Part shown: positions 2,312 to 54,400 of the stretch, piece by piece
How positions within the stretch are numbered: the stretch's first letter is position 1
Layout: the number at the start of each line of letters is the position of its first letter
Origin: Owenia fusiformis
Lineage: Eukaryota; Annelida; Polychaeta; Sabellida; Oweniidae
Assembly (NCBI GenBank): GCA_903813345.2
Contig: CAIIXF020000009.1
Location: 27,688,740 to 27,752,739, forward strand
Reading direction: 5' to 3'
Length of the DNA: 64,000 nt
Made by a program: the position numbers and the translations under genes
The notes under the pieces: model-generated
What the model was told of the DNA's origin: nothing
Seen by the model: only the letters and a program-made list of their open reading frames with translations
The model's database searches: none

Positions 2312-9823
<7,512 letters not shown>

Positions 9824-11314: not shown

Positions 11315-11966
11315 TAACAAGCTATGATATTGGTTAACACGCCAGAAATTAACATATAATATTATTCAAAGCGTTATTAGAGAAATTCGAATCCACCATT
11401 TGGATTTGGACCAATCAGGATCAGGTCATCTCTCAATACAGATTTGCATCATAAATGTACGTCATCTTTGAACCCTGGGGTTTCTCCCCCTCTTCATATG
11501 AACTGAAGGTTTACATAATATGTATTAATATGAAACATGAGTAACAATACCATGCCATCTGAAAATCTTCTGAAAAATACAGAAGGCACACCTCTGTTGT
11601 TTACATCTCAGTTTGATATTTTGAATCATTTGCAGTTCATCTTCACTTCTGTTTGGCCAGTAACGCTACATGTAGGAGCATGGGCTTTCAATAGAGTCCA
11701 TGCTCAGAGAAAAGGCATGTTCAGTGCGAAGTACTCTCATACCCTACATATAGTCTCTAATGGAATATTTACTACTCACTGCGAGTAAAAACCATTGAAA
11801 ATGGCTTACACACTAAGTGTAGGTTTATTCATATATAACTAAGTCAATGTACTTGTTTTTATAGGGCTACATTTCCTGGAAAATGGAGTCCAAAATCGAA
11901 TAACTAGGAGCTCATACTTGTGATGCCTTATATGTAATCCAGTGCAGCCCTCACTCAAGGTCAACA

Positions 11967-13016: not shown

Positions 13017-16000
13017 GTGAGCCCCAATATTTTAATTTAATTTCTAACAGATTTTACTCTTTAATTAGATAACAAAACATGTTTTTGTAAATCTGAAAAG
13101 CTTTCCCAGGTTTTTTAATGAATAAAAGAGTTGTCCCAAGTGTATGGATTTGGAATTGGAGCTATGAATTTTAACTATTCAGAAAATTATAGAAACAGCT
13201 TGTGTGTCACTTTCAATCGTCTCACCACCATGATTCTCAAACAAACCAACTTCAGTAATTCAGCACTTGGAAGTGTAATTGGCAATTGATTTCTTGTCTA
13301 TTTGGCAGTATGTTTTTCTAATTGATGTCTTTTGAGGAATCTTAAACATATTTAGGCAGCTACATTACTAAGTATTTCCTTTTTCATATAGTTTTAGCTT
13401 GCTAAGAAACAAAATGAAAGTGCCATATATGAGAAATAATTATGACTCAAGAATATTTTTCGTTTGTCATTTGTTGCCCTCATATTTGAAAGAGGATTTG
13501 AAACAATGATATTGGAAACTTGGTGTATCTAAGACTGGGCTCAAATCTCACAGCTGCCTGAGTGCCAATGCTGATGTTTTATTACTCATGGCAAAAGACT
13601 CTGAAAACTGGTTGCCTATTAGAAAGTAGAAAAGAATACCATATTCATGGGGAATTGTGGCATTCATGTTTTTAACCTTAGTATTGAACCATGTTCTTAG
13701 TTTGATGGGTTTTACATTCTCTTGTACTCGCCAAATTTTGTGTAAGTTTTCCCCTCACCCTGTCACCCTCTCCCTCTCGTGATAGAGAGAATAAGCCTCT
13801 GTAGAGGAGAACTCGATGTACGTCTCTTTTGTCTCAATTTTCGTTCAGCGAATCTTCCATTATTCAAGCCCAACAAAATGATCTTGTATTTTTCAGTGTC
13901 TCCGGTCATCCTGTTGAATGACTTATATCACATAATCAGGAAGAAATTGCCTTACTGGGAAATTTGATTTGGGCTCTTTGATGTTCATAAATACATTAGC
14001 TGAATTATTCTGTCATTGATGATTGGTGGAGCATGGGCTTATTTAGCTATCTCTGGGTTATCTGTCAAGTAAACGATGTCAAGATGCCAAGACTGCATAT
14101 TTGATTCGATTCAATTTCTCTCCAATTTTCTTTTATTAGTTCTATTGTATAACTGATTCCTTGACTTAACCCTTTTCATGAGAATCTATACACCAATATG
14201 AAGAATTGTGGTCCTCTGAGGATAAGTTCTCCCTTTTGTAGTATCTACTTGCCCAATTGAGTATAAAGGTCTGAGGGAAATAGTCGTAATTAGGTCTTGT
14301 AAAAATGGTAAAAATTATGGTGCATGGCATCAATGTTTTAGATTCTAATCAGAGAAAGATCTGGTGTTGTTCCAAAGTTCAAATATGGTTTAATTTTAAT
14401 TATGAATACAGTCATATAGCAATGCATAAATGATAGATCTATGTGGTGAAATAGTTTGATAAAATACATACGAGGGGTGATTCATAAGTTGTGAGAGAAA
14501 TACTGCCTCAAAAAAACTCATTATTTCTGAATCACTCCTCACATATATATTTTTTGTTTGTAATTTGATTAGAAATGTTAAAGGTTAATGTGATGTTATC
14601 AATACCTGTAATTGTCACCTGACTAAATGCTCTTGATTAGCTCTTAACATTTAGTGAATCATGTACAGTGTAAAGATTGTGAACTGTGTTTGTTACAAAT
14701 GTTGTACAATGATGCCGTACAATTATAAAGTACAATATGGTATACAGGTTAATACAATGGTTAGCAGAATTTTTCGAGGAGACTAGTCAACCAGGATTTC
14801 TATTTATCAAATCATTTGATTACACAAAAGGTCCTGAACCAAGTTATGATTTATTAATTTATGTGACCATAACTCAGTTGTCCTGGTTACAGAGTTATCT
14901 AGTGATGATAACATTATGTTTTTCTTCCTTGTAGAACATGTGTCCTTTTAGCTTGAATTCCCACTGGAGGAGATAACCCACAGTTTACCTTATTTACTAC
15001 CTGTTTGTTTCATGCAAAATTTTCACCATGTATTATCTGATTACTTCCTATCAGTGAGATATTTAACGGCAGAATCTGATCTATAGGGGGTGACAAAATT
15101 ACAAGCAACATGTATAATTGACCAACCAATCTATTCCTTACAATATCAAATACAATATCTCCCAAAAGATTCACGATATGTTATAAATTGGTGAAGTTAT
15201 TAATGATTCAAAGTGCAAAAATGAGTGATAAATGTTTAAATTCTCCCAAATAATAAGAATGGTAACCATTCTTATAGAAAAATGATACATTAATGTAAAA
15301 TGTTTTAGTTTTCCTGGAATAAAGTATGCACTTTTGTGATTTTTAGAAAATAGACATGACAAGGAATGACATGAACCCAAAATATTCTAAAATTGGAACA
15401 ATTTTTTGTTTAGCCTGCTCGCTATATCTGATTCTCTCTTTAATTAACTTTTACTTATTTCTTGTATCTTTCTAAATCTTGGCGTAGAAAAGCAAGTCAT
15501 GATATTGCTTAGGAGTACACGATGTTGCATATTATCAACATTTTGCGACCGGCTGTTCTTGGAATATTAGTACTTGTTTAGAAGGCTCATATATTTTACT
15601 ATATTGACTTTAGTAATTGTGGTGAGCCATAGTGGTCATTATCCAAGTTTACACTTAGTTTTCAATAGGTGATGATAATAGTAATAATCTCATTTTAGCA
15701 GGTAACATAGTAGAATTCATGACCCTTGGTCAAAATACGCCTTCTTTTCAAGATTTTTTTCTCATCTTCAAATAGGTGCAATTTGATTTTGAGGGTGCAA
15801 GCCTACTTTCAAAACTTCAACTGGGTGCAGGACCTACTTGCATATAAGGACATGTGCTCAGTAATAATATATTCAGTAGATATGGGTCATCATACAACGG
15901 ATCAGTAATTTTTGCCGCTGAAAAAGTACAAAATTGATATACAGGTCATTCTGATTCTCATAGCATCTTTCTGTTTCACCTGAAACATATTAGGGCTGGG

Positions 16001-19000: not shown

Positions 19001-22000
19001 TAAGTCATATGTGCAGTATCTCTATAGGATTTTGTCTTAACCTTCTTTTACCTAATTTGACCAGAATATCTCAAAATGCAGTCATTGCAAAGCATTCAGT
19101 TCATGTATACATATATCCTTTGATAGTTTATAGCGTGGAAGTTTTTTTTCTCCGACCTGAAAATTGGCCCCCCCCCCCTTGTTGGTTCCCGGATCCGCCC
19201 CTGCATATGTGACCAAATTGAATTAGCTGCAAAAACAATTCCAAATGATTTTATTATGTACCCTTTATGCACTAAGTTATCCAGGGTTGTTACTAGAGAA
19301 TATTTATTGATATTTAATTACAGTCATCAATGTCTTTATCTGATTTCCAGTTTCCTCAGTACTGTAATCAAAGTAACAATATGAACAATAAGAATATTTG
19401 CGTGCTCACAATATTCAATAATAATAGGAACTCCTGTTTAGTTTCTTAAAACACTTCAACTCTTGTCAGATTTTTGTATTTTGTTTTAAAAGCAATTATC
19501 GAACTTCTTTATGTTAATTTATCATTTCAAAGTTTTTTTTCAATCCAGTCTCTTAAAGTACAGTATATTACTGTTTTGGCTACAGTACTGTACATTTCCG
19601 TAAAATGTGGTATTGTACGGTACTGTAGACTAAAGCAGTACCGATACAGTACCGTTAACATTGAACAGTACCATACTTGAACAGCACCATACTTGAACAG
19701 TACCATAGGGTACCAAGATTTCAGAATGCTGATTGGGAGTGTATGAATATTCAATGTCATTATCATTGCTTTGCCTAAAAAAGACCATCATACTCCAAAC
19801 TGCGTAATTTAGGTTGTTAAATATAATGCTATTTATAGTTAACTACATCCTTGAACTTTTCTTTTTGATTTGGAGAAAATGTCACATTTTTTATATATAA
19901 ACATTATTTAATGGCTAAAGGTTAGGTTAGTTTTAACTGCAAAAAATAGTTTCTTTTGTGTATTTTAGTTGACAAATAACCTCATCCGTAAGGCTTCATA
20001 TTTAAACATTATGTTTTTTATTTATCATTTTATAAACATACATACACACTATGTTAATACTGACTATATTTATGCTATAGTAGTTTTCTCTAGAATGCCC
20101 ATTTTGTGTTAAGTTTACAGGGCTGATTTAGGTTTCTGTATTAAGTTTGCAGGGCTGATTTATGTCAGAATGCAGGAATATCCTATGGTGTAATTATTAG
20201 GTTTTGCCTAAAACAAACTGAAGGTAATAGACCATTATGATAAACTCTGCCACCTTTTGGTATTTCAAAGAAGCAAGGATATATTGGCTTTATTGATGAT
20301 GTCATTGGTTGTAACATGGGCTTTCAAGAGACAATCTGTCCAAAAAAAGTGCAAGCAACTTGCAAGAAAATCACTCTCTCTTTGGTTCTAGAATTGTCAG
20401 TCATCTTTGGTTCTAGAATTGTCAGTCATGTACTGTGTTTATAGAAGGATTTAGTGTTGAAGCTCTGGCAATGATCATGGAGAATATAACTTTTATTGAC
20501 ATATTGTATCATATGATTAGACAAATATCAATAGTCAATACTTTGTGGTTATAAATGATGTATACATGTCGTAAAAATGTTGATTTGGAAAAAGGATTCT
20601 GTTTGCAAGAACTTCATTTTCGCCATTTAGAGACAACAAAATTTTATTTAAATCTGTATCAAATCAGTATAATGTGGTTAGAAAATAATGTCACCATTAC
20701 TGCTTAACACTGCTAATTCATGTCATATTCACATCATATTCAGTCTTGTTATATCACCAGAAGTGATGAAATATTGTTAATGTTGTAACTTTTTTGTAGA
20801 CAGTGTTTGCCATTTTGGGGTCATAATTCAGCATCTGTAACAAATGGCAGGTGGTGACATTTTGCACCTTGATACCTTGTGCTAATTAGCATTCAAAGAT
20901 GTAAAATTATTTGTTTACAGTCAGTAGACCAATTGTGCATCAGGGTTTACTTTTATCACTAGTCTTGCAAATATAATTGACTTTTCCTCCCCATTTATTT
21001 TTCTTTTTAAAATATGATGTTCAATGTAATATGTCTTTTTGTATTTCCAGGGATGGATGAATGAGCTGTCCAGCTATACAATGGAGGATTACCACATCAA
21101 TCAAACCAACTCTGTTTTTGTCTCAATAGAGGGCACTGCCCTCCGACTCCAGCGCCCGCGTCACAATGTCCCAAAACGTGCAATGTGGGATGAGGAACAT
21201 TACAACCCAGTGTTTATTCATCAACGATTTTATGATTTAAAAAATTCAAAAATTACTTTATTGCCACCCGGTTTAGTAAAAAAGCGAATCTGGAGTAAGA
21301 AATACCCGATTGTTTTAACAATACCAGTGGTGCCCTCACATCAGGGTACATCTGTTGACAGTGATGAAAATAATGATGCTTCCAGAACTGATGTGACATT
21401 GTATTTATTTGCCCGAACTGGTCGAGAGAAAGAATTATGGTATAGGAGGCTTGAGGCAGCCTCTATGAGTTCACCTCTTCCTACATGTCTTCCATCTTTA
21501 AAACAGCTGTCTTTCATGCATACTAGTCATTCAGATCCTCGGTTCAACCATGCAACACCATATAAGCATAAGCGGCAAGGTTCTACAGATTCTACCACCT
21601 CGGTAGGTTCTGGAGGTACGGAAGAGACACTTGAAGTTGAAAACAAGATACCTCCTGCCCCCGAGGATCCAAATAAGCTCCTGACAGAATATCTAAGGTA
21701 TATGTCGAAAGTGATGCCGTCTGATGAATCCAAAGTGCTCAGTGAATGGAAGGCGCAGATGCTTGGCTGTGAACCTAACATGTTCTGCTTCAATGCTCTT
21801 ATTTATAGAACATTCTGGGACTTTCTTCGTGACGGCTACTGGCAGGAGAAAATGAAGGATAAGATAATCAGGAAGCTTGACAAGATCCATGTAAGTATGA
21901 AATATGATTTGCAAGAAAAAACATTGTTGAAACAATGATGTCACAGAAAGGTTGAAGTGTCAATATTAAAATGGGACTTCTAGATCAAAGGAAGTAATGA

Positions 22001-25000
22001 AGGCCAAACTTTGCCCACATTTGAAATAAAAATGAATCCTTCTGGTCATTGGTCAAATTCATTTTTTGACTTGTAAAAATTGCAGCAATTTCTGCATAGA
22101 TCTTCAATGTTGAGGTCGAAAGCAATTAAAGGCCTTAATGGAAATTACTTGAGTTGCCTAATGTGATCAATATAATCTAATAGATTCCCATGAATGATGA
22201 TCATATAATACTAATCATGAATCATGATAATTAGATATATTTAGAAAATGCCATCAGAGAATATGTCTACAGAATATTAGAAATACAATCAGATATGTAT
22301 TGATTCCTATCCACATACAGAATCATAAGCCGCTTTAGTGCCCGTTAAAGACACCATTGTGGTTAAGGGTCACATTTTAATGTAACACAGTCTATATCTG
22401 TATACATAACTGTATCCAGTATTTGCCGCAGGCCATTTGTACCAGATTGTGTTGGTCTTAACTGTAATTCTCAACATATAGTGGATCTGTCAATTATTCT
22501 AGACATTTTTCAGTTTCTTTTGACAAAGAATTTTACTTTATTTCATTGTTTTATTTGCATTTCTGTTTAATACTGTATCTTGGAATTGACCTCTTTTCAA
22601 ATCATCGATAAATCATATGTATAAACTGTACTTTGACAAATCACACATTTGAGAATATAATCAACAAATAAATGGGTCAATTATTTCCAAATGGCATATT
22701 CTATAAAATGAATTGGTGATCTGGGTTTTGCTTCTAATCTTCTGATCTCATCACTTTTTCATAATGAGGTTGGATCTACCAGTAATATAAGACAGCATAG
22801 CTGTATACAGTATTAACATCTTTTAGTATATTTTGTGAATGGTGTTAAGCAATTGGTGTTCAGTGGTCAGCATCTGTAGCAAATGGCAGGTAGTGAAATT
22901 TTGTCTTAATGGATTATAAAGGATTTTGTCAAAAAATATTTTTAAAAACAATATTTAAAAAAATATTTAGGCTGATCTTGACTATGGGGCTGATATGTAT
23001 AATTGAGAATATGGGAAATCAGACTTGAACATAAAAATGCTTTGTGTTGAGAATATTGTTGATCAAAAATTCTTCAATAACAAAATCAGCTATATTAATT
23101 CCATTCATCTTGTGATCTCTTAAAAGATAAATATCCTGACTTAGCAATTTTAGAATCCTGTTTAGTCTGAAATATTTCAGATAATTTCCTGAATAACATA
23201 ATTTCCTTGTTATTCCCTTTACTGAGTATTTTCATTGCTATTTCGAAAGTAACACGATCACTTTGACATTCAAAGGGCTATAAATTTAGCGAGATAATTG
23301 GAAAATTTCTCATTATTTCTCACCATGTCATAAGTCAGTGATGTCATCAGAGACAAACATATTTATTATATCTTCATTATTTTATGGAATTGGATATGAG
23401 ACCCTTGAGGGTATTATTCTTGTTTTTCTTGAAATACTGAATATCAAGGCACTGAGAAGGTTGTGTAGGTTGATTGGTTGTTTGGTTGGTTTGGTTGGCT
23501 GGCTGGTTGGTTGATTGGTTATTTAGCTGGTCTTTTGGCTGGTTGTTTGGTTTGTTGTTTATTTTGTTGTTTGTTTAATTGAGAGGTTGGTTTGTTTGTT
23601 TGATCGGTCGGCTAGTTGGTTGTTTGGTTGGTTGCTTGGTTGGTTGTTTGTTTGTTTAATTGATTGGTTGGTTGGTTGTTTGGTTGATCGGTTAGTTGGT
23701 CCATTTTTACGCTCATTTGTTCAGGTCTCATCCTCTATTTGTAACACTCCTTTATCACAAAACTAATGACAAATTTAATCAAGTGTGGGATACCATTCGA
23801 AAAAAACATGAAAGTTACATTAATTTGGCAAGTTGCATGACTTTTCAATTCAAGTTCTGTATATATCCAATATATTTCAATGCTTTTTATCGTACCTAAC
23901 AAGAGGTACGATATTGTAGTCAGCTTGACGGGCAGAGGGTGGGCGGGCGGGCGGGCGGCGTCTCACTTTTCAGCTTGTCTACAGGTTTCCAGCCAAATCA
24001 TTTCAGGGATTCATCTGAAATTTTCAGGGATGTTTCTACATATCAACGTCAAGAACTGATTAGTTTTTGGGCATTCTGGGTAAATCTTAAGGTGGCCATT
24101 TTGGATTTTCCGTCCTAAAATCTTCACTTTCAAGACTTGTCTACAGGTTTCCAGCCAAACCATTTGAGGGATTCATCTGAAATTTTCAGGGATGTTTCTA
24201 CATATCAACATCAAGAACTGATTAGTTTTTGGGCATTCTGGGTAAATTTTAAGGTGGCCATTTTGGATTTTCCGTCCTAAAATTTTCACTTTCAAGACTT
24301 GTCTACAGGTTTTCAGCCAAACCATTTGAGGGATTCATCTGAAATTTTCAGGGATGTTGCTACATATCAACGTCAAGAACTGATTAGTTTTTGGGCATTC
24401 TGGGTAAATTTTAAGGTGGCCATTTTGGATTTTCCGTCCTAAAATCTTTACTTTCAAGACTTGTCTACAGGTTTCCAGCCAGACCTTTTGAGGGATTCAT
24501 CTGAAATTTTCAGGGATGTTTCTACATATCAACGTCAAGAACTGATTAGTTTTTGGGCATTCTGGTTAAATTTTAAGGTGGCCATTTTGGATTTTCTGTC
24601 CTAAAATCTTCACTTTCAAGACTTGTCTACAGATTTTCAGCCAAACCATTTGAGGGATTCATCTGAAATTTTCAGGGATGTTTCTACATATCAACGTCAA
24701 GAACTGATTGGTTTTTGGGAATTCTGGGTAAATTTTAAGGTGGCCATTTTGGATTTTCCGTCCTAAAATCTTGTCTATCGAGGCTTATCTACAGGTTTCC
24801 AGCCAAACCGTTCAAATTTTTACATATGTTACACAGTGATAAGTTCTAGAGCTGATTAACTTTTCTGCGGCCATCTTGCTTTCTTGGTCAACAAGACCAC
24901 AATGCTGTGTTTTAGGTACGATATTGTTCACGTCTGTGCCTTGTTATTTGATTAATATTAGGTCTCCATAGTGATAAGCATTATCCTGGAGTATCCTTTC

Positions 25001-28000
25001 TTTTATACATGTTAAAAGTGAAAGGTCTTCTTAGAAGTATTGCTCATGATGAATTGTTTAGCTTTGTGCTAATCCAGTGCTAATAGATCATGTACAGTAA
25101 AGTGGTATGTTCCTATCTAAGTGTCCATAATGTTATCCCACCGAACGAAGTTCGAGGGGGATATAGAAAAGCCGTCCGTCCGTCCGTCTGTTCGTTCGTT
25201 CGTTCGTCCGTTCGTCCGTCCGTCCGTCCGTCCATTCGTCCATCCATTCGTCCGTCCGTTCGTCCGTCCGTTCGTGTGTCCGGGGAATAACTCAAATACC
25301 GGTTGATGGATTTCATTCAAATTTTATAGGCTTATGCCTTATGGGTGTAGGACCTCTTCTCGAGAAGGAATCTTCAATGTGGCTGCTTAATTCAAAATGG
25401 CGGCCAATTTTCGGAAAAAATATAATCTTTAATAACTCAAATATTAGTGGATGGATTTGGTTCAAATTTTATATGCTGTTGCCTTGGTGCAAAGGAGCCT
25501 TGCTCAAGAAGACATTGTCAAGATGGCCACCAAATTTCAAAATGGTGGCCATTTTTCGTAAAAAAACGTTATCTTTGATAACTCAAAGACCATTGAATGG
25601 ATTTGGTTCAAATTTTAGATGCTGATGCCTAGGGACATAGGAGCTCTGCTCGAGAAAGGATTTTCAAGATGGCAGCTAAATTTCAAAATGGCGGCCATTT
25701 TTCGTAAAAAACGTTATCTTTGATAACTCAAATACCATTGAATGGATTTGGTTTAAATTTTAGATGCTGATGCCTAGGGACATAGGAGCTCTGCTCAAGA
25801 AGGGATGTTCAAGGTTGTAGCTAAATTCAAAATGGCCACCATTTTTCATAAAAGAACGTAACCTTTGATAACTCAAATACCAGTTGACGGATTTGGTTCA
25901 AATTCTATATGCTGATGCCTAGAGACAAAGAAGTTCTGCTCAAAAATAAATTTTCAAGATGGCCACTGAATTTCAAAATGGCCGCCATTTTTCGTAAAAA
26001 ACGTAATTAATGATAACTCAAATACTAGTTGATGGATTTGGTTCCAATTTTATATGCTGATGTTTAGGGAAAAATGAGATCTGCTTCAGAAGAAATTTCA
26101 AAGTCAATAGCTCAATTTCAAAATGGCTGCCATTTTTCATTAAAAAAGTAATCTTTGATAACCCAGATACCATTGGACGGACATTCTCTGCTAAAGAAGA
26201 AATCTAAAGATGACAGCTGAATTTCAAAATGGCAACCATGTTTCATAAAGACATAATCTTTGATAATTCAAATACCAGTGGATGAATTTGGCTCAATTTT
26301 TTTTGTCAAAACATATTTTGTTCGGTGGGATTTGCTACTTGGGAGTTGCTGTTTTTCTAGTTTAGTGTGTTGTATATTTTAATATAATTCTTTTCTGAAT
26401 AAGTTTTAATTTCTGCCTCTTTTTAATGTGGTTTTTATGGCACAACCACTTAAGTTGTTGGCATTCAGAGAAACAATGGCAGGTGGTGACATTTTCAATG
26501 TTAATGCCTTTTCTGATGGGAAAGGGTAGATCAAAGATTTTTTTTATTTAAAGTGTCATATTGACAAATTCATCATGTCGAGATCCAAAGTCAAATGTTA
26601 TCCAAAGGGTAGGTGTTCCTTATGCTGTGGTCACATTTGCTCCGATTTTTACTACGGCGCCTGGCCGATTGAGTATTTTGTTCAAAATTGTATTCAATTT
26701 TGAACAGAATACTCATCGGCCGGGCGCCGTTGCTGAGGTGTTCCACTTATAGAGGTTAATTGAACATTAAGTCAGTTGGTCTTGGTAGTCTGAAAAGTGT
26801 TCCACTAACAGAGGTGTTCTTCCTCTAGAGGTGTTCTATTTTGCAGATTTTACTGTACATTTTCATATGAAACTAGAATTAAGCTAAGCATGAAAATCAC
26901 GAAGATGCCACCTCAGTGACGCTGACGCAACTGCAAATATATATCCATTCAAACAAATACCAACATCCAACCAATATCATTGATTTTTATCATTAAGAAG
27001 TGTCACCATAACATCTAATGCAACAGATTACTACAAATTGATTGTTATTTTATAAGTAGTTATTAATGAAGTAGAATAAATTGAGAATTCTCTGGTTACA
27101 TTTATAATATCACAGCTATAATTTTCAACAGTGATTGATAACAGTTATAATTTCGATTACCTCATTACGTTTTTATTAGCTCACATGGCTTTAATACCTG
27201 GATCTAGTGAACAAAACATGACTCCATTTTGCATCTGTTATCACTCTATATCAAGTCTTGTGAACAACATTGAGTAAATGTGCCTATCATATGTAGATAT
27301 GAACAAGACACAAACTTCTACCTATGAGAGACTCGGACAGAAAGTCTGCAATTTGCGATCACCATGTATATCAGTGTAAGAATAGTTGGACTTCAAAAAA
27401 GTTGGTACTATTGGAAAGCTGAGATTTTCAGCTTTTTGGATCTACCAGCTTTTGTTAAGATTTTGGGGTAAAAAATGTTTAAAATACTAATTTGGGAGGT
27501 GTTCCACTTATAGAAGTTAATTGAACATTAAGTCAATTGGTCTTGGTAGTCTGAATAATGTTCCACTAACAGAGGTGTTCCACTTTGCAGATTTTACTGT
27601 ACATTTTTATATGAAACTAGAATTAAACTTATTATAAATGTCATGAAGATGCCACCTCAGTGATGTAACTGCAACTCGTATATCCATTCAAACAAATACC
27701 AACATCCAACCAACCAATATCATTGATTTTTTATCATTAAGAAGTGTCACCATAACATCTAATGCAACAGATTACTACAGATTGATTGTTATTGTATTAG
27801 TAGTGAAGTAAAATAAATTGAGAATACTCTGGTTACATTCATAATATCACAGCTTTAATTTCTCAATGGTGATTGATAACAGTTATAATTTCGATTACCT
27901 CATTACGTTTTTATTAGCTCACATGGCTTTAATACCTGGATCTAGTGAACAAAACATGACTCCATTTTGCATTTGTTATCACTCTATATAAAGTCTTGTG

Positions 28001-31000
28001 AACAAAATTGAGTAAATGTGCCTATGTATGTAGATACAGTAGAACTTGTGTATGTGGAATACTCTGTACTGGCCCAAAATTACCATCATTTTTAACATAG
28101 AAAGACGTGTTTTACATTTCCTGGAAGAACTTGTTTCATTTAACATTTCATGAACAAGACACAAACTTCTACCAATAAGAGACTTAGACAGAAAGTCTGT
28201 AGTTTGTGATCACCATGTATATCAGTGTAAGAATAGTTGGATTTCAAAAAGTTGGTACAATTGGAAAGTTGACATTTTCAGCTTTTCAGATCTACCAGCT
28301 TTTATTAAGATTTTTGGGTAAAAAAATGTTTAAAATGGTAATTTCCATAGTCACGATTTATATTTCTGATTAGTGCTAATTTTCCTATTTTCAGCTACCA
28401 TTTTTTATTGACAAGCTCCTAGTAACAGATATCAACCTTGGTCACGAAATGCCAATTATACGACGAATGTCCAAGCCTTATATAGATGAGCAGGGTCTTT
28501 GGATTGACCTTGACCTTGCTTATAGCGGGGGATTCCAGATGACATTAGAGACAAAGGTGAACCTGATGAAGCTAAAGAAACAGCCAGGAAGTGTCCCTGA
28601 AGATGATGAGGTTGGTACACCATTGGACAAAAGGTAAGATTTCATTTTTTACCGAAAAAAAGTTCTATGTATTCTACCATATCATAAAAATATGAAAAAT
28701 ATTATCTAATTTATTACATTTTTAAGAGAGCAATGTGTTTGATGTCTCAGCTTTTAATAGCAAAACACCATGGCAATCTTAAAGCCGCCAGCCTTTTAAT
28801 CTAAGCAATAGGGTGATCGTGTAGTTGCTCAGGTAAAACAATAACCACTTTACCTTTCAAGCGACATATTATGTTGTTAAAGCCTCTTGTTAATATCAAC
28901 TCTGCTACATTTAGTATATCATTTAAAGGCTGTATGTCATTTTAATTGAGCTTATTGGTAATGTTTGTTCAAATGCAGAGATTGTCACAAACTTAGAACA
29001 GCTGTTAGAAATCAATGTCATACCAGGAATGCTTGTGGTTAAGAAAAGCAATTCTATCAATAATTTTTGAATATTCCTGAAATGTATCTTTCTGCAATGT
29101 GTGAGTTATTTGTGAAACTGACTTTAAATCGATAAATGTACTGTATTATGACTAATGATTTATGTAAAGAAATCCACACATTTAAATCACATTTCTCATA
29201 TTGCTTTAAGTTATGTTCTTTTAAGAGGTCTCGCAATCAAATCTATTTTGAATAATTGTCAAGTTTCAATATTTTGCAAGTTCATTTAAATTTTAAGGGA
29301 TGTGGGATCAGAAGCAAAACTTGTTAGATTTCTAAAATGGCATTAAACTCACTTTGATTCATAAGGTTTCAGTTACTCCAACTTCACCTTGATAATCCAA
29401 GAATGAATCCACATTTACTGAGTAAACAAAACAAAATGTTACTAGTGTTCTAAACCGAGGCCCAGGAATATGTTAAAAATGTTTAAAATGTCCGCTAGTG
29501 TACTGAGTTGTTAATGCGTTTTTTTTACATGTATAAGGATAAGACTGATTTTTATAAGCTTAATGGATAAGAATAAGACTGATTTTTTTATTAATGACAG
29601 TATACCCGGGCCTTGTTATGATTATGTAAGATAAACATCAATTCAGGGCATCTTTCTTAAGAAACTCTATTAAGGCCAATTAAGGCCCATAAAATGAAAA
29701 AGTGTAACTTGGTGAAATAAATATTTGGAAACTTTTGATTGGTTCCCTGATGATCTTTATGGCCATCCACATAGTAACAGAACAGAAAAATAACCATTTG
29801 CATATCCGTGGTGTGTTATAATACCTTCATTCTGATTCTCATAGCATCTTTCTGTTTCACTTGAAACATTTCAGGGCTGAGAAGAATTGAGATGTCATGG
29901 TTTATCATGATGTAACACCTTGGGAGTGTGGAAGTCCATGATGATTAAACTTTTGGCTCTAGCCTCCTTTTGCAAGCTATTTCCAAATCATACTCTCATT
30001 TTCATGTCATGATAAACTTTTATTTTATTTCAAGTCTAGTGGTTTTCTGCTATTAATAGTCACACTGACTTTAAGATGAAATACACCCTAGATCTTGTGA
30101 CATTGAAAGATGTTTTCGTTAAATAATGTTGATTAAATGGGAAAATCTGAAATAGAAACATGATTTAGTTTGAAAAACATTATGATTGATATAACTAGTC
30201 AATTTATATTATGATTTATTTCACGATTTTATAGTTGCTAGCAATCGGATTCATATGATGTCAATTTATTATCCCATCGAACGAAGTTCGGAGGGATATA
30301 GGGAACGCCTCCGTCCGTCCGTCCGTACGTACGTACGTCCGTCCGTCCGTACGTACGTCCGTCCGTACGTCCGTCCGTCCGTCCGTCCGGGCAATAACTC
30401 AAATACCGTTGGCCTGATTTTATTCATATTTTGTACACATATACCCTATGGGGGTAGAAGTTCTGCTCGAAAGCCGATTTTCAAAATGGCCGCTCATTTA
30501 AAAATGGCGGCCATTTTAGTGCCGATTTTACAGTAATTTAGGTGCAATATGTAAAACTGTAATAGCAATATGTTTTAAATGTAAAAAAATTATATAGGAC
30601 ATTAATAAAGCTAGAAATGTAGATATTAAAAAAGCACATGGCAGCCATCTTGAAAAATGGCGGCCTTTACTCGTTATTTTACGATTTTTGCTGTAACTCG
30701 AAAAGTAGTGGAGCGATTTTGTTCATATTTGGTATGTGAATACTATAGGCATGGCACACTGTCTAATGACACTTTTGGTAGAAGGCGGCCATTTTGAAAA
30801 ATGGCGGACAGTTTAAAAAAATGCCGCCATTTTAACTTATTTTACTAAAACTCGAAAAGTAGTGGAGCAATTTTGTTCATATTTGGTATGTGAATACGTA
30901 TAAGCATGGCACACTGTCTAATGACACTTTTGGTAGAGGGCGATCATTTTTCAAAATGGCCGCCATTTTAACGTATTTTACTATAACTCGAAAAGTAGTG

Positions 31001-34000
31001 GAGCGATTTTGTTCATATTCGGTATGTGAATACTGTAAGCATGGCACACTGTCTAATGACACTTTTGGTAGAAGGCGGCCATTTTGAAAAATGGCGGACA
31101 TTTTGAAAAATGGCTGCCATTTTAACTTATTTTACTATTATTCGAAAAGTAGTGGAGCGATTTTGTTCATATTTGGTACGTGAATACGTATCAGCATGGC
31201 ACACTGTTTAATGACACTTTTGGTAGAAGGTGGCCATTTTTCAAAATGGTGGCCATTTTAACGTTTTTTACTATAGCTCAAAAAGTAGTGGAGCGATTTT
31301 GTTCATATTTGGTATGTGAATATTATAAGCATGGCACACTGTCTAATGACACTTTTGGTAGAAGGTGCCCGTTTTGAAAAATGTTCGATGGGATTCGCTA
31401 CGCTTTGGCGTTGCCGTTGTTCTGGTTCTATTTGCAGATGTCTAATCTGACATCATCGGGTGTTACATGCTGACATCAACAATGTATTTTCATTAAACAA
31501 CTATAAAGATAACATATACAGCATCCTAAGAAATGTCTCTGGCATATTATTTTTTCTCTATTTCACTTGAATCATGACCTGTAGTATTTGTATTAGGAAG
31601 GTTAACTACACATTTTTAAGAGACCTTATAATATGATGACCCCCCAGAGATTACTGTCCCACTCTCTATTGATTTTCCCCATAGGCAAAGGCCAAGAGGA
31701 ATAATTTTTTTAGTTCCATATTTTTTATTTTATAATGCTGCTGATTATGCAATATCTTAATCCTACCCTGAGTCTACATCATCTCAACATATTACACTCT
31801 CATAATAATGATTTTGCAGAACTTGTGATTTTGATCTTGATGATCCCAATAGTAGCTTTCATTAGTTTTTATGTCACCACCACAAGTGACATATTGTTAT
31901 AGTCTCTAAATTTTATGTGGACAGTGTTCGGTTGTTGGCAGTTGGTATTCAGCAGTCAGTGTTAGGCATCTGTAACAGATGGCAAGTGGTGATATTTTGC
32001 GAGTTAATGCCTTGTGAAATGCTTGACTTCATAATGAATTTCAGCTATTTAGAGACAGAAAATATGCTATCTGGTAACGTATCCTGATCGGATCAAAATT
32101 ATCTCAATTTAAAGAATGTTGCTGAAGTTCTCGTAAAGGGTTGTAATAACAGTGGGACATTTTGATAAATTAATATTCATGTTGCCAGTTGCCACTTATA
32201 TACATTGTCATACATACAGTTTTATACTTATACACCATGATTGTTGCAGGTCTCCTATCACTGATTCAGAAGAAGAGGATTCTGCTGAAAGCTCAACTGA
32301 TGAAGAGGAGGAAGAAAATACAATAGAACAGCCAGTAGACAAGTAAGAGCCACCCTCCCCCTTTCTATAACTATTCAAATAATATTGCACACTGAATACT
32401 TTTCACTGCTTTTAATCCTGCACATTGCCCTAGAACGCAATCTTGGGTTGTTCCACGGCCATCTGTAAGATTTTGATCTATAATCAAAGAATATACGATG
32501 GTGAACAAATGGGACAAATCTTGTGTACAGATACTCACGATGAATGTGTCATTGTGACTATGTTCCTTCAATTGCTTGGATTGTCGGCGACAGTTTGATT
32601 TTTAGAAGGTTTCTAAATTTAGAATATGACGTCACTACTGAATAAGAGCGTTTGAAGTAATACGCATGAATTTTCCTAAGCTACTGTACAAGTCAGTGGT
32701 CCAGGGGTAGAAAGCTTGATCGTCAGGCATATTGCCATGGTTAAAATCCCTGCATGGTATTTTTTCAAACGTTTTTAACTAAATGGTTGTGCTCTGACAT
32801 TACCCAGAAAAAGCAGATTATTACCAACTCAACTTTATAGTTGGGCGATTATAATCTTGTTTGCTGTATCAAAAATGGAAAAATGATTTATGTTTACATA
32901 TTGGGTTTTGAGGCAATGTGCAGGTTTCATCAATTGGAGTTTTCTTCGATATTAACTTATTATTCATGTGTAATGTGTAACAGATTTGCATTTAATCCTT
33001 GAGCTGTAGAAAGCTTCTGCCATGGCTCTATTCATCATTAGTAATTACATGTACCCTTTGCAGAGATGTCTCTTAAGTAATATATAGATGCAGTCCCACC
33101 CTGTTTTCATTGCGTGATGGAACAATATTGTGAAAAAGTTTGACCATCGTTTTGATTCTTTCTTGGAAAAAGATAAAACCTTGTGATTATCTTTAACTTA
33201 ATCGGATCCTCATACAGGGTGAGTCAAAAAAGGTAGCCTTAACAAATATTGATATGAAGCATGGGTTTGAAATCATATTTCGCGCAACAGCTCTCAGATA
33301 TCTTGTGTAATGGCGCAAATCATCCTTTTTATCTCTTAGTCTCTGATGGTTGTAATGTGGATTTATCAAGGGGGGGTTCAATTTTTTCCCCAGATTGGTG
33401 GTTCGTTTTATAAAGAAAGGGGGTCTTCAAGGCGACGCAGAAATGGTTTCAACAAACCAATTTAATTGCAGAGTATAGTGCACACATCATCAAATAGCAA
33501 GTATAAATATGTGATTCATTGTTTGCGCAAAATAGTCATCTTTCTGAGAGTGTGGTTCATTCTTGTGGTTTGTTGATATTTCAGAAAAGGGTTGTTCCCG
33601 GCTGGTGGTTCATTTTATAACAAAAGGGGGGTTCGAAGGGATTCATTTTGGGCGATTTTCCACATTTGGATCTTGTTTTGTAAAATGGCTCTAACATTGT
33701 GATCATTAGGAATTGAACAATGAAACTTAGTAGAATGAAGGAACATTGAACAAGGTTTAATTTTGTCAATTATAATTTGAAATCCATGCTGGAAGACGGA
33801 GTTATTAACATTTGTTTGGGTTACCTTTTTGGCTCACTCTGTACTTAAGCATTTTGAACTTGAGTGCCATACATGAACCACTTTGCCAGTTGATAGAACA
33901 GTTGATGATTATAATCATAAGGAAATAAAGCTACATGTACATGTAAGGCTTAAGCCATTTTAAAAAATATATTTAAGGTAGGGTTGCATCTTTAAGTGTT

Positions 34001-45035: not shown

Positions 45036-45464
45036 CTACATAGACTGCCCTCCTAAAAGGTTTTCTGTCAAGAGGTTGTGGTGGTTATCATCCCAGAGAC
45101 CACCTCCCCCCATACTCCCTCCCCACATACCCCCCTGAAGCCCAAAGCTGCTGCCGTTCCACTGGCCAGGATCCTTGCCTCCACCCCACATGCTGTTCCG
45201 ACCAGCATTAATCGCTGATGGCGCTGTAGCGGTGGGGGCAAGGGAATTCTGCATCTCAACATATTTCTGAGCATCTCCTTCCGTCACAACCTCTGCCTGG
45301 ATACTACTGCCTCCAAGTGGACAATTATTTAATGCTTTTTGTGCCTTCATAGCCTCATCCAGTGAAGCGTAGCACACGAGTGCGTGCCCATAACTCAAAT
45401 TGGGGAAAAATTGGCGTACTAGACCGTGTTGTGCACATAATGCCTTCAGTGTGTTGCCATCGAA
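45036..45464 (-). CDS. TNRC6: TNRC6 last exon: RRM and C-terminal silencing tail
   Basis: After acceptor CTGTTTCAG it encodes FDGNTLKALCAQHG...YGHALVCYASLDEAMKAQKAL, the RRM as in vertebrate TNRC6. Then comes a Gly/Trp/Met tail (MWGGGKDPGQWNGSSFG, WGGSMGGGGLWDD) and LLGGQSM, stop TAG. The terminal LLGG-S matches the family end. Confidence 0.93.
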   Translation of the reverse strand, partial: FDGNTLKALCAQHGLVRQFFPNLSYGHALVCYASLDEAMKAQKALNNCPLGGSSIQAEVVTEGDAQKYVEMQNSLAPTATAPSAINAGRNSMWGGGKDPGQWNGSSFGLQGGMWGGSMGGGGLWDDNHHNLLTENLLGGQSM

Positions 45465-48400
45465 CTGAAACAGATCAGACATAACAGATAATCACAAAGG
45501 TTAATATACATTGAATAAGGACACATGAATCAGGATTGTGACGCATGAATAAGGACTTCTTGCACTTAGGCGACATACATCTCATACATTTCACTCAAAA
45601 TTCTACACACAATTGTTTTCATTCACTGGGTGCAATAATTCTTCAAAGATTCTCCACCTCTACAATGACCATTTTGCCAAGAAAGTTGAATCAGTGAGTG
45701 ATCTCTGTGAAGCAATTAACAAAATGAATTAACACACACATACAGAGAACTATAGCATAAAGCCATCTTTTGTGCAGAAAGTGTAGAAAGTAATTGTGAA
45801 ATATTTGAGGGACACATGAATAAAGCAACCAACTATTTAATATATTCAATTGTTTGACATTGACTTACAACATGTAAAATAAGAGTTCAATGAAATGTCA
45901 ATCACAAAACTACAGATACAGGCAATGACATAATAATACAATACATAAAAATTTTACAATCTTCTTTTTTGATTCTAAAACTGTTGTGTGTTGAGGATGA
46001 GGTAATAATTCAGACTCATAATAATAAAGGCAACAAACACTCCATTTAAACATTTACTGAATGCGTTTAATAAACTTCAACATACTGTTGTGCTTTAGAT
46101 TGAGTGATAAGTACTGCAACAACTGATGCAATTGAGAAAATGAGTCTTAACACTACAAGTGATTGCATTAAGTTTTTATTCAGTATTTTCAAAATCTACG
46201 TCATATTTAACAAACATATCTTATCCTGGCAGTCAACTTTTCGTATTTTACATATCTACATTATGTAAAATTATAAATGAAAGTTCACATATTCAGGTTT
46301 TTAAGGGCCTTGTGCCAGAAGTCAAACTAAACTACCTTTACTAAGCGTATTGCATAATATAAAGCAGGCAAGTGTATTTCAAGACAAGACCCTAGAAAAA
46401 CACTAAATTAGAAACAATGACTGCCAAGATCCCGTAAGATTCTACGCAAAGTGGGCATTAGTGACAGAAGCACCCTAAAATTAGCTACCAAGCCAAAGTT
46501 CAGGACTCGTGTACAATCGGTGTTTGAATAATAAATGCATGAAAATATGCTCATTAGTCAAGATTGCAAACCCGCCTAGAAAGATGGTTAGCACACAGCA
46601 TAATTTCTAGCAAATCTCTACAACCATTTTTAGGTACAATTACAATCTGCGGTGAAAAGTAAGGCAGTATTAAGAAAACACGAATTTCGTATGAACTAGG
46701 TTAGAATTTCTCTAATAGAGCGTTAGAAATGAATTCACTCTATAGTTAAAAAGAGCAGAAATCAGAAATAGGATAAATCCACGTGATAGATCAATTAGCG
46801 TAAATCAAGCTGAAGAAATTAAAGGGGAGTAAAATGGGTGAGAGTATTTGCTAGAAGAGCTGTATGAGACTGCGAAGTGAGTAAGCTCTCACATTGTAGT
46901 CTGTAACGTCATCTTTAGGGGCTGTTCAGTCATTGCCAGTTGTTTGGTGAATTAGGGCTTACTTGAGCTGACAGGTTGCTCATCACCATCCAGCCAAGAT
47001 TGTTGTTATTATACATTGAACCAGAGCTGCTCACTAAAAGTACAAATAAGAACAAATAAGGAATACAGAATGAGAAAAAATAAACAGAACAGAATACATG
47101 AACAAACGAAAATCTTTGTAATGGCTATTGTATTTCTCTCTGTAACATTCAATGTAAAAATCTTATAATTAAGATCTCATTTATAAAATATCTTAATATC
47201 TTATATTTATTTAAGAGTATGTTCAATTTCTATTAAGTTTAAAACGGTAATTATAAGCATAACATTAGAATAAAGGGATCTAATATAGTGAATACCTGGT
47301 TGGAAAGCAGATCTTTCTCCTGGAGCCCAAGATTCGCTGCGATTCAAACCAGGGCGACTATTCTTGCCCCCAAGTCCTGGAGGTGGGCGGGCTGGAGCAG
47401 CGCTTGCTTTGCTAGTAGCATTCCAGGGAGATGTAGATGAAGGTGCATCTCCTGTGCTCCAAGATGTTGCAGAAGATGTGCTTAGTGAGCGCCCACTGCT
47501 AAATGACTGCGTGGCAGAGGTGCCCATGGTGGTCTTGTTTAGTAGAGACTGGATCGATTCTTCTTTGGGTGTAGCAACACTGTAGCTACTTGCGATACTT
47601 CCTGGTGTCATGTTTGGGTCATCCTCAATCGTCTTAAAGCCTGCCCATGGCTTCCCTGGAACAAACTCTGCTATCATGTCATCTGCTTCCGCGTTGGCGG
47701 GAGATTCAAGTTTGGGATCTGTTTCTGATTGGCTGGTACTTGTAATGGCACTAGATGTTGGCCAATTAGAACTGCTGCTGGTCGATGTCGACCAAGGGTT
47801 ATCGCCCCCGACAGAGGGCAGCTCCGGAATCTTGGACTGCAAATTAGGTGTGGAATGCGATTGATGGATTGGTAGTTTTGATCCGGGTGCTTTATTGAGG
47901 CCGGCACCTTCGTCTTTCTCTGGAGATGGGAGCTTCCACATCTCCAGCCGAGATTTACTTTTTGGCTGAATATCGGCACCTATCTTGAGTTGAGATAGGT
48001 CTGATGGCAAGTTGGTGAGCACATCTTGCTTCATGGCTTGATTGCCCTGAGGCCCTTCTGGCTGTTGGGCCTGCGCAATGCTCTGTTGCTGACTGAGGAT
48101 CTGCTGTTTGATCTTCTGGATCATCAACATGATCTCCCCCAGCTGTTGTCGCTGCTGTTGCGGATTTGCATTCTTCTGCTGTTGCAGTATCTGCTGCTGT
48201 TGCAACAACCTCTGCAGAACAGCCTGCAGCTGTAACAGATGTTGCAGCATGGTTAACATCTGTGGAGTCAGCTGTTGATTCAACAGTGACTGGTTAATAA
48301 GGCCGGCCTGTACGGCCATACGTAGCTGCTGAACGATTTGGTTCTGCAGCTGTTGGTGAACCATTTGTGGGTTATTAAGTGGCGGTGGTTGCTGCATCTG

Positions 48401-51400
48401 GTTGCGCATGGCTGCCTGTTGCTGCTGTTGATTCTGAGGGGGGTTGTTGGCAGTGGGTTGCTGCTGCTGTTGCTGTTGAGCAAGTATCAACTTCTGCTGG
48501 AGGGAGGGATTAATACTGTGATTGGTGGGCATACTGAGACTAGGGTTCAGACTAGGACCTTTGACGGAATTGGCTTGTAGGTTGGTGAGTTGAGCATTGG
48601 TGGTTGTAGGAGTATTGTGCATAGAGCCAGGGATGACAGGCACATTGAACGAGTTGGCGTCGGTCTGAGTATCGGATATGTGATCGGCCAGTTGGTCCTG
48701 GAATGAAGTTGGCCGGCGTCCCGGAAGACCACCCAGCCCAGTCAAGTTTATTTCATCCTTGTTAGCACCGTGGAGTAAGTCAGCTAAAAAACAACAATAA
48801 TTACATTCTTATTTTCTGATGCTGATGTTTTATAAGTCCTTGTGTTTTTTTCGTATTCAAACAGTTTCCTTACACTTTCTCCTTTTTCATATATTGCACA
48901 AAAAATTTAAAGTGAAAAAATTGGCCTCATGGAATCAGCTTATAAAATTTGAGCAAAATCAGACAAATAATATTTGAGTTATCAATAATTTCTTTTAATA
49001 TTAATGACTATCAATTGAGCGGCTACATTGAAAAATTCTTCTCCAACATAAGTCCTTTGCCTCCAAGGTCTGCATATTTAAATTTTTTTAACTGAACAAC
49101 TGGTATTTGATTTACCGCCTGGACATGAATGAACAGATATACAGAAGGATAATTAACTTATTAAGTATAATATAAATTCAACTTACCAATGGCACTCTCC
49201 AGGTTAAGATTATTGTTGATCAAAGCATGCTGGGCCTCATCTTTCTTAAAGCCCATCTCCATCAATTGCTGCAGCAGTTTTACTCTCATTTGAGGCTGTT
49301 TATTGTATGTCATAGCACCACCAGTCTGGAAAGTCAAAGCATTTATACATGAAAATGAGTGTTCTGTTCTGAATACTCTCATTTGAGGCTGTTTATTGTA
49401 TGTCATAGCACCACCAGTCTGGAAAGTCAAAGCATTTATACATGAAAATGAGTGTTCTGTTCTGAATACTCTCATTTGAGGCTGTTTATTGTATGTCATA
49501 GCACCACCAGTCTGGAAAGTCAAAGCATTTATACATGAAAATGAGTGTTCTGTTCTGAATACTCTCATTTGAGGCTGTTTATTGTATGTCATAGCACCAC
49601 CAGTCTGGAAAGTCAAAGCATTTATACATGAAAATGAGTGTTCTGTTCTGAATACTCTCATTTGAGGCTGTCTATTGTACGTCATAGCACCACCAGTCTG
49701 AAAAGTCAAAGCATTTATACATGAAAATGAGTGTTCTGTTCTGAATACTCTCATTTGAGGTTGTTTATTGTATGTCATAGCACCACCAGTCTGGAAAGTC
49801 AAAGCATTTATACATGAAATTGATTGTCATGAATATGATACTCTATTTTGTATTTCATTCCATTTTTTTGAAAAACTACAATAGTCTACAAAGGAATAAA
49901 CATGTTTAGTTTTTCACAAAAAAACAACATTTTATTAGTCTTCATATTTAATTCAGCAAATTGAGTATGTATTCAGGAAAGACTTAAACCAAGCATTTGA
50001 TTTAAGTATAAGACTAACTAATGTATCTTATTCATCCACATAAATTGCATCTAAATGTACATGTAGATGTAAATTCATGCATATACTGCAAATACATCCA
50101 ATTTATTGCAAATTGTTACAGATGCTGAACAAAAACTGCTAGACGCCAACTGTCGAACACCATCAACAAAAACAGTTGGGAGCAGGTACTTACAGGAAAT
50201 GAAGGCTTTCTGACTGGATTATTATCTCTGTTGTCCCAATTTGAGTTTGTGTTTGGTCTAGGACCAGGGGCACTGCTCCAGAGAGCAGACTTCTCAGCAT
50301 CACTGGTCCATTCACCCATGTCTGTGTCCTCATTCCAAGCTTTAGAACCACCCTCATTCCAGGAATTATTCTGAAGAAACAAATACAGAGCATGTTTTGA
50401 TTGGAGGAGAAAACCAGTCAACATTCAAAATCTTTAGTCTACTAGTCTGGCCAAAATTATTATTGAATTTCTACAAGACTCCTGGTACATTCAATCACGA
50501 TCGTTTTTTGTTTAGACTAAATTAAATGCTTTTTAAAATCATATCTCAAAATAGACATCATTGCCAATATTTGGTCAAGGACATTAGTTACTGAGTATTG
50601 ATAGTTCTATATTTTCAATGTTTAATTTCCAAACTTGTTTGAAATAACAAACTGAATTCTTAAGTTTAACTTACGCGCTTCTGGCCTGGGGCATTCCAAG
50701 ATCCATTGTCATTATCTCCCCATCCCTGAGGCTTGGGTCCTGAGGGTGCAGACTGCTGTCCTCCTGGCCCCCCAGTCCAGTGATTGTCCCCCCAGCCTCC
50801 TCCCTGGCCTGGTGCACCTTTCTGCTGAAATATGCACATTAAGGCTCTCAATATGTATATATAGAAACATGTTTTTAAGGGGAGACAAAAGTGTTAAAAC
50901 AATTACAAAATGGAGAATTCTAGAGTACAACTAGTCCCCAAAAAGTTATCTTACTTTTGAGGGAATCTTCACAAAAATAATAACATTAAATCAGTTCCAC
51001 AAGAATGAATCTGATAAATTGATGGTTCCACAGGCCATAAATGACATTCAAGATCTTAAATATATTGGTAACAAGTTTGTGGTTATGTTAGATATATGTC
51101 ATCCAATCAATCTCATATAAACATCAGATGCTAATGAATTACGTCGAATAATTCCAACAAATATGAGAATGTATTGTTGGAGCTACTAAGGGTTATGAGA
51201 ACAGCCATAAGTGTCTCACCTGCTGCCCTGTGGAGCCCCAGAGGGAGCCAGCCGCATCATTTGTTGGATTGTCTGGTCCAGTAGCATCACCCCAACCTCC
51301 ATTAGGTTTCTGTCCATTCATCCTATTATAATCCTCCATCTTACGGCCTGCCCCTGGTGGGCCTGGGGTCTGTGGGGTGGTAGGGGCACTGCTTTGACTT

Positions 51401-54400
51401 CCCCAACCTTGGGGCTTTTGAGACTTAGGGTCACCCCAGAATGATGTTCCAGCATCTATATTAGAGCCGTTCTTGCGAGATGACGGTGGACTGGCATCAC
51501 CCCATCCAGTAGGCTCAATCTTCTTCACATCAGGAATTGCCTGTGGTGGTCCTGCGGTCCATCCTGTGGGCTGAGGCCCTGGGGTGGTGGGAGTGTTGCT
51601 GCCGTCACCCCAGCTAGATGTGGAGCCTCTAGCGGTGCTGTCCCAACTGGAGCTGGACATCTTGGGTCCTGGAGCCTGTTGGGCTGGTTGTTGAGGAGTG
51701 CCTCCCCATCCTGATGTGTCAGCCTTGCTCTGACCCCATTCATTGTTGCTGTTAGCCTGCTGGGGGTTGCTGCCTCCCCAGTTGTTCTGTTGAGGTGGTG
51801 GCTGTTGAGGGGGTGCTTGCTGGTTCCCCCACTGGTTGTTACTGGTGGGTCCATTAGGTTGGCTACCTCCCCATCCACTATTTTGGCTGTTTACTGCAGG
51901 TGGAGGATTGTTCCAGTCTGAGCCACCAGCGTTGGGTTTGCTGTCCCAGCCACTGTTACTAGGACGCCCTTGATTATTACCAGCACTGTTCCAGCCATTG
52001 GGTGGAGGCCCTCCTGGTGCTCTATTTGGGGGTGGTCCCTGTTGGCCTCCCCAGGACTGGTTGCCAGGTGGAGGCTGGTTGTTAGGAGGTGGTTGGTTAC
52101 TAGGGTTACCATTCCATTGATTACTGTTAGGTGCTCCTCCCCATTCCTTGTTAGGTCGGCTATTGACACTGTTAGTTGTCCCTCCCCATTCATTGCTACG
52201 TCCCTGTCCATTGTTCCAGCTCTCTGGGTTGTTTCTACGGCCTTCCCAGTCTGAATTGGCACTTTGTGTTGGAGGCTTGTTGTTCCAGCCATCAGTGGCT
52301 GGCTGTGGCGGTGGGTTGTCCCAGTTGGGGCAATCACCAGGTCGAGGCCCTGGTGGCTCCTTGTTCACTTTGGATGATTCCCATATTGCAGTTCCATCAT
52401 TTGGTTGATGCCAAACCGAATCATCTTCTGGATTTTTGCGTTTGGACTTTGGTGAGAGTGCACAGTCCCATTGGCTGTCTTGCTTGACGCCGCGTCCCCA
52501 GCCAGTGGGGTCATTGATGGCTGCCTCAATCTCCTCTCTTTGGCTGCGCGCTTGCAGCTGAGCAGGCGTCTGTTGTTGCTGGGCAGCTAAATTCAGGCCC
52601 TTGGCTGCAGCATTGGCGAATGATGCCGGCTGCTGTTGCTTCTCAGTGGCAGGATTTGGGTTGGCAGGATTTTGGCCCCATTGGCCTGACTGGGAGTTGA
52701 CGGCGCTCCCCCCTGGGGTAGAACCCCACTGACCAGCAGCTGATGATGGTGTCGGGTTACCCCAGCCTGCACTGTTAGGATTGGGACTTGCATTGGGACT
52801 AGGATCCCCCCAGCCTGTGGAGCTGGTGGCAGAAGCTTTGCTGTCCTGACGTTGCGGGGCACTGGTGGTGGGTGGCACACCCCATCCAGATGACCCTCCT
52901 GAGAATACTCCAAACTGTTGATTGTTAGCACTTCCCCCATCAGCCTTTATTGCAGCATTATTGACATTGGACTCGGCACCATTGCTGGAAATACTGAGAC
53001 CAGAATTCATATTCCAGCCTGATTCTTTCGCTCCACCTGGGTTCTGGAGCCCAGGCAGACTACCCGGATTAAAATTAATACCCTGGAAAAGGCCCCCTAT
53101 GGCGCTAGTGGGGCCTGACTCCCCTCCTTGAGCACCAGTGTTGCTTAAAATACTGCCAGGTGGTCTGCTGCTACCTGGGGCCACACTGGTGCCCCATCCG
53201 AGACTACTAGAGACATCTATACCTGATGTAGCAGGCGTAACTTGTGTGTCTGGGGCACTGCTTCCGCTGCTACTACTGGATGCAGGCGCAGACACTGGTG
53301 GATTCGACTGTTGCATATTGACTGTGGCCTGCTGGTTAGTGGAGTTGCTGGAATTCCAGCCTCCTACTGTATTAGAGTTCTGACTGGTAGGAACGTCTCC
53401 CCACCCACTATCCTCCTCTGTACTTCCCCAGCCGCTAGAGGCTGCGACCTGAATGGCACTCGACCCTTGACCTAAGTCGATACTTCCCGTCACACCGGGA
53501 TTACTTGAGCTTGATATCACAGATCCTGATTTGACTGACGCGTTGTCAGCGTCGCCTGCTTCTGAGGCACTTTCTGATTGGTTGCCGATACTCGGCCACT
53601 GCTCCTTGTCCTTTGTGTCTATAACGATACTGTTTTGTTTGAGTGAGGTTCCTAAACCTCCCCAATTGGCTTCAGTTGTGCTGCTTACACCCCAGCCACT
53701 GTCGGCACCTTCCACTTGTGGATCACTCTCTGGAACATTAATCATATTATCATCAGTATTATTCATGATAATTAATGATGTCTACAATCTCATCTTTTAT
53801 TGCTACAATCATTGCATTTTACATTTCATACTTTCATACTGAAATCCCAATCATAACACTCTACCATAAGATTCAAATCATTTCTCACAAATTTTGTTTT
53901 TCAACTGGTCAGGAAAGGTATATTAAAAATGTTATAGTTAACCAAGATCATGTAATCTACTACTATTCAGTATTCACCTCCTCCTCCTATATCAGTCCAC
54001 CCACTTCCTGAAGTGTGTGCACCACTGCTCCAACCACCGTCACCTGGTTCCTCGTTTCCCCAACCAGTGGCAGCACTAGTACTTCCTGTTCCCGCAGACC
54101 ACTGATCTGATACACCTGACACGTTTTGTTTCACAGCTACAAGCACAATCAAAGGGTAGCTATAGAACGTGCAAGGTTGTAATGGGGGTGGGGGTGGGGG
54201 TAGGGGTGGGGGTGGGGGATTGTAGATCAAGAGTGATCATCCTCTTATGATAAATAGTAACTGTATGACTGCTTTGACGATAAGTTGACCAATGTTTCCA
54301 AAGAACATTTACCCCAGTTAAGGAAATGTAATAAAATAGAAAAGGAAATTTTATGGCAAATAGTTTAAGAAAAAAGTATCAAAGTAAGGTCCTTATCCAT

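Follow-up and report, generated by a model that had tools for sequence, protein, structure and literature searches.

In the 64,000-nt stretch of DNA analysed here (the window), a TNRC6 gene contains a 93-bp unit, made of 48 nt of intron-like sequence and the first 45 nt of the UBA exon, six times in a row. In each unit there is a strong 3' splice site that keeps the phase of the preceding exon, and the array has the look of a young minisatellite. With moderate confidence, we interpret it as an expressed minisatellite in which the first acceptor (49790) would be dominant and the later acceptors would have minor in-frame use. Upon use of 49790, the copied intron ends would become coding and place five 31-residue blocks (155 aa) before the UBA domain. 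Because the unit is 93 nt long and open, every acceptor yields an in-frame TNRC6, and six protein lengths could arise from the gene. Acceptor choice, translation of the blocks and any effect on TNRC6 we infer from the sequence. The gene and the array are on the minus strand, with the following features (each acceptor is named by its first exon base; a slash marks a splice junction).

50194 to 50370, minus strand: exon upstream of the array, 177 nt, phase 0 end at CCT/GTAAGT, from translation and splice sites
49791 to 50193, minus strand: intron to the first acceptor, 403 nt, with an in-frame TGA (49829-49827) just upstream of the shared block
49839 to 49850, minus strand: intronic CAAAATAGAGTA, 10 of 12 positions like the exonic CAAATGAGAGTA, which lies downstream by exactly 93 nt; the first duplication was probably seeded here
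49698 to 49790, minus strand: copy 1, acceptor 49790, 45 nt of exon and 48 nt of copied intron-like part
49743 to 49748, minus strand: GTATTC of AGA/GTATTC in copy 1, proposed donor of background strength, recurring every 93 nt through copy 5
49605 to 49697, minus strand: copy 2, acceptor 49697 (TTTTCAG), departs from the consensus at three positions, including -4, immediately before the acceptor
49512 to 49604, minus strand: copy 3, acceptor 49604
49419 to 49511, minus strand: copy 4, acceptor 49511
49326 to 49418, minus strand: copy 5, acceptor 49418
49187 to 49325, minus strand: copy 6, the native UBA exon, acceptor 49325, 139 nt, donor TTG/GTAAGT at 49186

Tandem Repeats Finder places the 93-bp head-to-tail array at 49281-49827 (5.9 copies, 98% matches, 0% indels), a minisatellite in the sense of near-identical head-to-tail units of tens of bases. 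A search of the whole window found CAG/ACTGGTGGTGC exactly six times on the minus strand, with the first exon bases spaced by exactly 93 bp. These results bear out the first-pass annotation, which had described a six-fold 93-bp unit spanning an intron end and the first 45 nt of an exon; the strand was missing there, and its coordinates fit the minus strand. It had also called the six acceptors identical. This holds for CAG/ACTGGTGGTGC and not wholly for the surrounding text, which reads TTTTCAG in copy 2 versus TTTCCAG in the other five copies. Four of the six copies (3-6) show no differences over 93 nt, and the 58 nt located 5' of acceptor 6 have the same text as in copies 3-5. The copy number is taken from the assembly, where the distinguishable units are 1, 2 and 6.

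The region is rich in tandem repeats. Further minisatellites are found at 23963-24809, 25287-26181 and 30686-31383, with periods of 162, 145 and 290 and stops in all six frames, together with several tetranucleotide arrays, including 23459-23700, 25172-25275 and 30310-30389 (Tandem Repeats Finder). A 24-bp repeat at 8268-8639 (15.5 copies) has four of six frames stop-free over its length; its consensus could encode a PPAGQYGA-type repeat on the minus strand, in a frame with one stop. On the plus strand there are long open frames at 11904-13040 and 21030-21938, which we take to be reminiscent of TEX2. Pfam matched PH_SMPa in the latter (E 0.00032, below the curated cut-off) and no family in the former.

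The UBA exon (46 aa) matches Pfam UBA_7 (E 1.6e-07) and UBA (E 3.8e-07), both above the cut-off. In a PDB search, residues 2-45 of this exon aligned with the human TNRC6C structure 2dkl (E 2.3e-05), and the aligned stretch includes what corresponds to most of the 15 residues that are repeated. Two designed PPR proteins ranked above 2dkl, neither with a stretch passing singly. The earlier assignment of the exon to a TNRC6 UBA domain is supported by these matches. An excerpt of PMC5570423 gives a UBA, a Q-rich part and an RRM as parts of GW182/TNRC6 proteins. The upstream ORF (53781-51193) is GW-rich and the downstream ORF (48808-47207) is Q-rich by eye, a predicted arrangement that fits the GW182/TNRC6 layout. 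Beyond the UBA, Pfam weakly backs the putative TNRC6 parts. RRM_1 on 45036-45488 (E 0.0085) and TNRC6-PABC_bdg on 47207-48805 (E 0.0075) are below the Pfam cut-off, and the GW-rich frame (51193-53778) matched no Pfam family at E 0.1, as was the case for four of the eight pieces searched overall.

The preceding exon (50370-50194) ends in phase 0, and all six acceptors are in phase with it. We joined five pieces into one frame. They are an open stretch of 2.5 kb, a pair of small exons, the UBA exon and, from the next frame, its first 600 nt. The first and last exons were cut short, and the exon borders outside the array are our own assignment from the sequence. The joined frame has 0 stops in 1363 codons with the first acceptor and 0 stops in 1208 codons with the last. 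The initial observations that the acceptors share the phase of the previous exon, and that the 604 nt are stop-free with every copied intron end open, are thereby upheld. In the 600 nt that begin at the first acceptor, there is no stop in frame 0, against 25 and 10 in the remaining two sense frames; within the array, all five frames other than the open one contain stops. One added unit reads TGGAMTYNKQPQMRVFRTEHSFSCINALTFQ (31 aa, with R instead of K in copy 2), and five such blocks are the maximum insertion.

On its own, the open frame carries little weight. Among 48-nt pieces, 361 of 1289 (0.28) are open in four neighbouring introns, compared with 0.37 of random window pieces and 0.31 of shuffles, and the terminal 48 nt are open in two of the four neighbouring introns (A and B). 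The chance that a single unit is open and has a length divisible by three is about 0.09-0.12, including a factor of 1/3 for the length. Since the copies descend from one unit, their openness is weak and non-independent evidence. We rejected the open frame as proof of coding at this chance of about 0.1; it is compatible with selection and does not demonstrate selection. The copies differ by four substitutions outside the junction block (one in copy 1, three in copy 2, none in copies 3-6), three synonymous and one changing K to R. In this comparison, the copy-1 differences upstream of -33 were left out and position -30 was assigned to the junction block. The synonymous excess may be counted for the expressed-minisatellite reading, though it is not significant (P 0.09 for at least three of four; null of transitions, 29 of 93 synonymous), and it becomes weaker (three of five) if the non-synonymous copy-1 difference at -30 is counted. 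The native intron flank has an in-frame TGA that the matching block of the repeated units does not contain. The difference could mean that a stop was lost under selection, or it could be due to chance.

Splice sites were scored with generic metazoan matrices, used for ranking only. The six acceptors score 4.43-4.69, and 2.1-2.5% of the 3673 AGs on the strand score higher. They are inside the range of the other three assigned acceptors of the gene (1.32, 7.52 and 5.50). With six acceptor-like sites after one donor, the array is a candidate set of tandem alternative 3' splice sites. Being coarse, the rankings have no power to separate equal acceptors. Branch-like yUnAy motifs are present at -25 and -9 in the copies checked (1, 2 and 6); copies 2 and 6 have another at -31, and copy 1 has another at -40.

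The intron is 403 nt long with the first acceptor versus 868 nt with the last, and the neighbouring introns are 395, 304 and 403 nt long. A first-acceptor intron would thus be like its neighbours in length, which we count for the first acceptor. The resulting 604-nt exon seems tolerable in this gene, where an open stretch of about 2.5 kb is read as one exon. By analogy, a human BRCA1 duplication, whose cDNA contains a duplicated intron part according to an excerpt of PMC11839443, may also be counted for the first acceptor. On the other side, the copied stretch is intron-derived and has no domain of its own passing singly, which argues against an expressed block. Exon definition would favour the last acceptor and its 139-nt exon.

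The predicted protein of the repeat was modelled with AlphaFold2 without an alignment. The result has many strands that recur in a repetitive pattern (the best of five models has a mean pLDDT of 70.4 and the other four 57.2-64.5, with the UBA end under 50). Foldseek of this model against the PDB returned 178 matches at E values up to 10, all of them above 0.001. Because AlphaFold2 reportedly yields unrealistic beta-solenoids when given repeat proteins (excerpt of PMC11795689), we give the model no weight. In the repeat part, Pfam matches such as Adeno_shaft and SH3_5 had 0 stretches passing singly and were set aside.

The unit length sets a single register, in which the intronic CAAAATAGAGTA (49850-49839) faces the exonic CAAATGAGAGTA (49757-49746). 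Of 63,239 window positions, a fraction of 9.5e-05 match the exon 12-mer as well as this, and none of 331 upstream-intron windows do. The 27-nt block before the shared region agrees at 16 of 27 positions in register, which a fraction of 6.0e-04 of 63,122 positions reach, and not one random window piece out of 19,716 reaches the gapped alignment score of the flanking 30 nt. As the unit length equals the distance between the two similar 12-nt stretches, short intron-exon homology is suggested as the seed of the first duplication. We infer the following order of events. The short homology, 93 nt apart, would have led to a tandem duplication of a segment carrying the branch region, the pyrimidine tract, the acceptor and 45 nt of exon. 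After the duplication, the junction block would have changed, and unequal exchange would then have raised the number of units to six and made them alike.

A search for decayed older copies in the upstream intron gave no signal. In a local comparison, this intron scored 52 against the unit (equalled or exceeded by 167 of the 500 shuffles and by 119 of the 493 window pieces), and 42 without the junction block (295 of 500 and 279 of 493). The local gap costs were permissive, and the result is an absence of signal, not a proof of absence. In a global comparison of the presumed copy 0, 92 of 1000 shuffles scored as high when the junction block was included, and 454 of 1000 when the last 28 nt of this block were taken away. 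For the junction block and its edges, the rest of the window (both strands, without 49187-49830) contains no template match of at least 13 nt; there is one 12-nt match at 29995 and nine 10-nt matches, the nearest at 47085.

An unlikely but credible alternative is that only 49325 is used, so that the five upstream units are intronic and the protein is normal. The last acceptor yields an ordinary 139-nt UBA exon matching TNRC6C, and since there are other minisatellites in the window, the array need have no role. However, the five upstream acceptors are equally strong or nearly so (4.43-4.69) and come earlier in the transcript, and the stretch of 58 nt before acceptor 6 does not distinguish it from acceptors 3-5. 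The first-pass annotation had proposed instead a generator of graded isoforms, with all six acceptors in comparable or regulated use, which we consider unlikely. The near equality of the six acceptors and their common phase favour it, as do the branch-like TTCAT at -25 in the three checked copies and CTCAT at -31 in copies 2 and 6, with the same text in copies 3-5 as in copy 6. Splice-site competition, however, usually gives dominant sites, and proximity should favour one end. Of that proposal, a series of isoforms in 31-residue steps is possible, given six strong, nearly equivalent, in-phase acceptors; the openness of the units adds no independent support. The accompanying idea of tuning presumes a regulatory purpose, and a neutral or nearly neutral minisatellite would account for the DNA equally well. 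A stronger version, which we think doubtful, is that the acceptor minisatellite would be a length dial for a core microRNA-silencing scaffold. Individual copy number and tissue acceptor choice would set the number of 31-residue, partly intron-derived blocks before the TNRC6 UBA, and openness would be held by selection since the blocks are translated.

The array may also be real with a copy number that is partly an assembly artefact, which is improbable and compatible with the other readings. Copies 3-6 are identical over their full length, and the count of consensus units is therefore not anchored by sequence. Against an artefact, copy 1 can be told apart by its native flank, copy 2 by its three differences and copy 6 by its continuation into the native exon, so at least three units are supported. 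Splicing within the array, either as 42-nt micro-exons with a GTATTC donor and 51-nt introns or as recursive splicing, is highly improbable. The arithmetic works, with GT at 49748 giving 42-nt in-frame exons. However, the AGA/GTATTC donor scores -5.41, at the background of all GTs (57% of 3149 on the strand are higher), and lacks a G at +5, whereas the four assigned donors of the gene score 2.08 to 6.89 and are exceeded by 0.2-3.1% of GTs. The earlier suggestion that GTATTC could act as a weak donor is thus disfavoured. The best GT in copies 1-5, CTG/GTGGTG, is 4 nt into the exon and scores -1.43, exceeded by 18% of GTs; by sequence scores, the duplicated exon part contains no functional donor. 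A recursive splice site requires an AG/GT motif, and the acceptors here read CAG/ACTG. A similar duplication in potato RdRp created an intron, with a GTAAG donor there, according to an excerpt of PMC4974935.

The array amounts to a competition experiment set up by nature. One donor in a conserved gene is followed by six 3' splice sites that are nearly identical, each having an upstream region of its own, and RNA from the locus would reveal how an animal spliceosome chooses among equal acceptors in steps of 93 nt. Should the upstream acceptors be used, the array would be a clear case of intron sequence turned into coding repeats in a conserved silencing protein, and copy number would be a simple source of protein-length variation.

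Among known systems, NAGNAG tandem acceptors are 3 nt apart and share a common branch point. Several in-frame acceptors compete there after one donor, as those of the array would, whereas the acceptors here are 93 nt apart with their own upstream regions. In searches of open-licence papers, the titles and starts of abstracts among the matches listed gave no description of a many-copy acceptor array, which leaves novelty unproven, and nothing was found in the open-licence literature on alternative splicing isoforms of the GW182/TNRC6 UBA domain. Tandem repeat number can affect splicing, as in splicing VNTRs such as the intronic VNTR of ABCA7 (excerpt of PMC5954066); here, in contrast, the repeat unit itself holds the acceptor and part of the exon. 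The excerpt of PMC4974935 describes for potato RdRp (RNA-dependent RNA polymerase) a tandem duplication of the same geometry, which made a new intron by activating the GTAAG donor, with RNA-seq support. That was a single duplication, whereas here there are six in-phase copies, no good donor and an open copied intron end. Since no donor here is comparable to the potato GTAAG, intron gain is unlikely. The human BRCA1 variant c.671-395_2287dup is likewise a tandem duplication across an intron-exon border, including the acceptor and 395 bp of intron, and its cDNA retains the duplicated intron part (excerpt of PMC11839443). The inner acceptor would therefore have been passed over in that product; the assay primers were specific to the duplication, and thus blind to transcripts skipping it. 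The BRCA1 duplication is a single one of 2012 bp, out of frame and with a premature stop, whereas the present unit is 93 bp, in frame and in six copies. Tandem duplication across an intron-exon border is thus known from potato RdRp and human BRCA1, and what is different here is the copy number, the exact phase and the gene.
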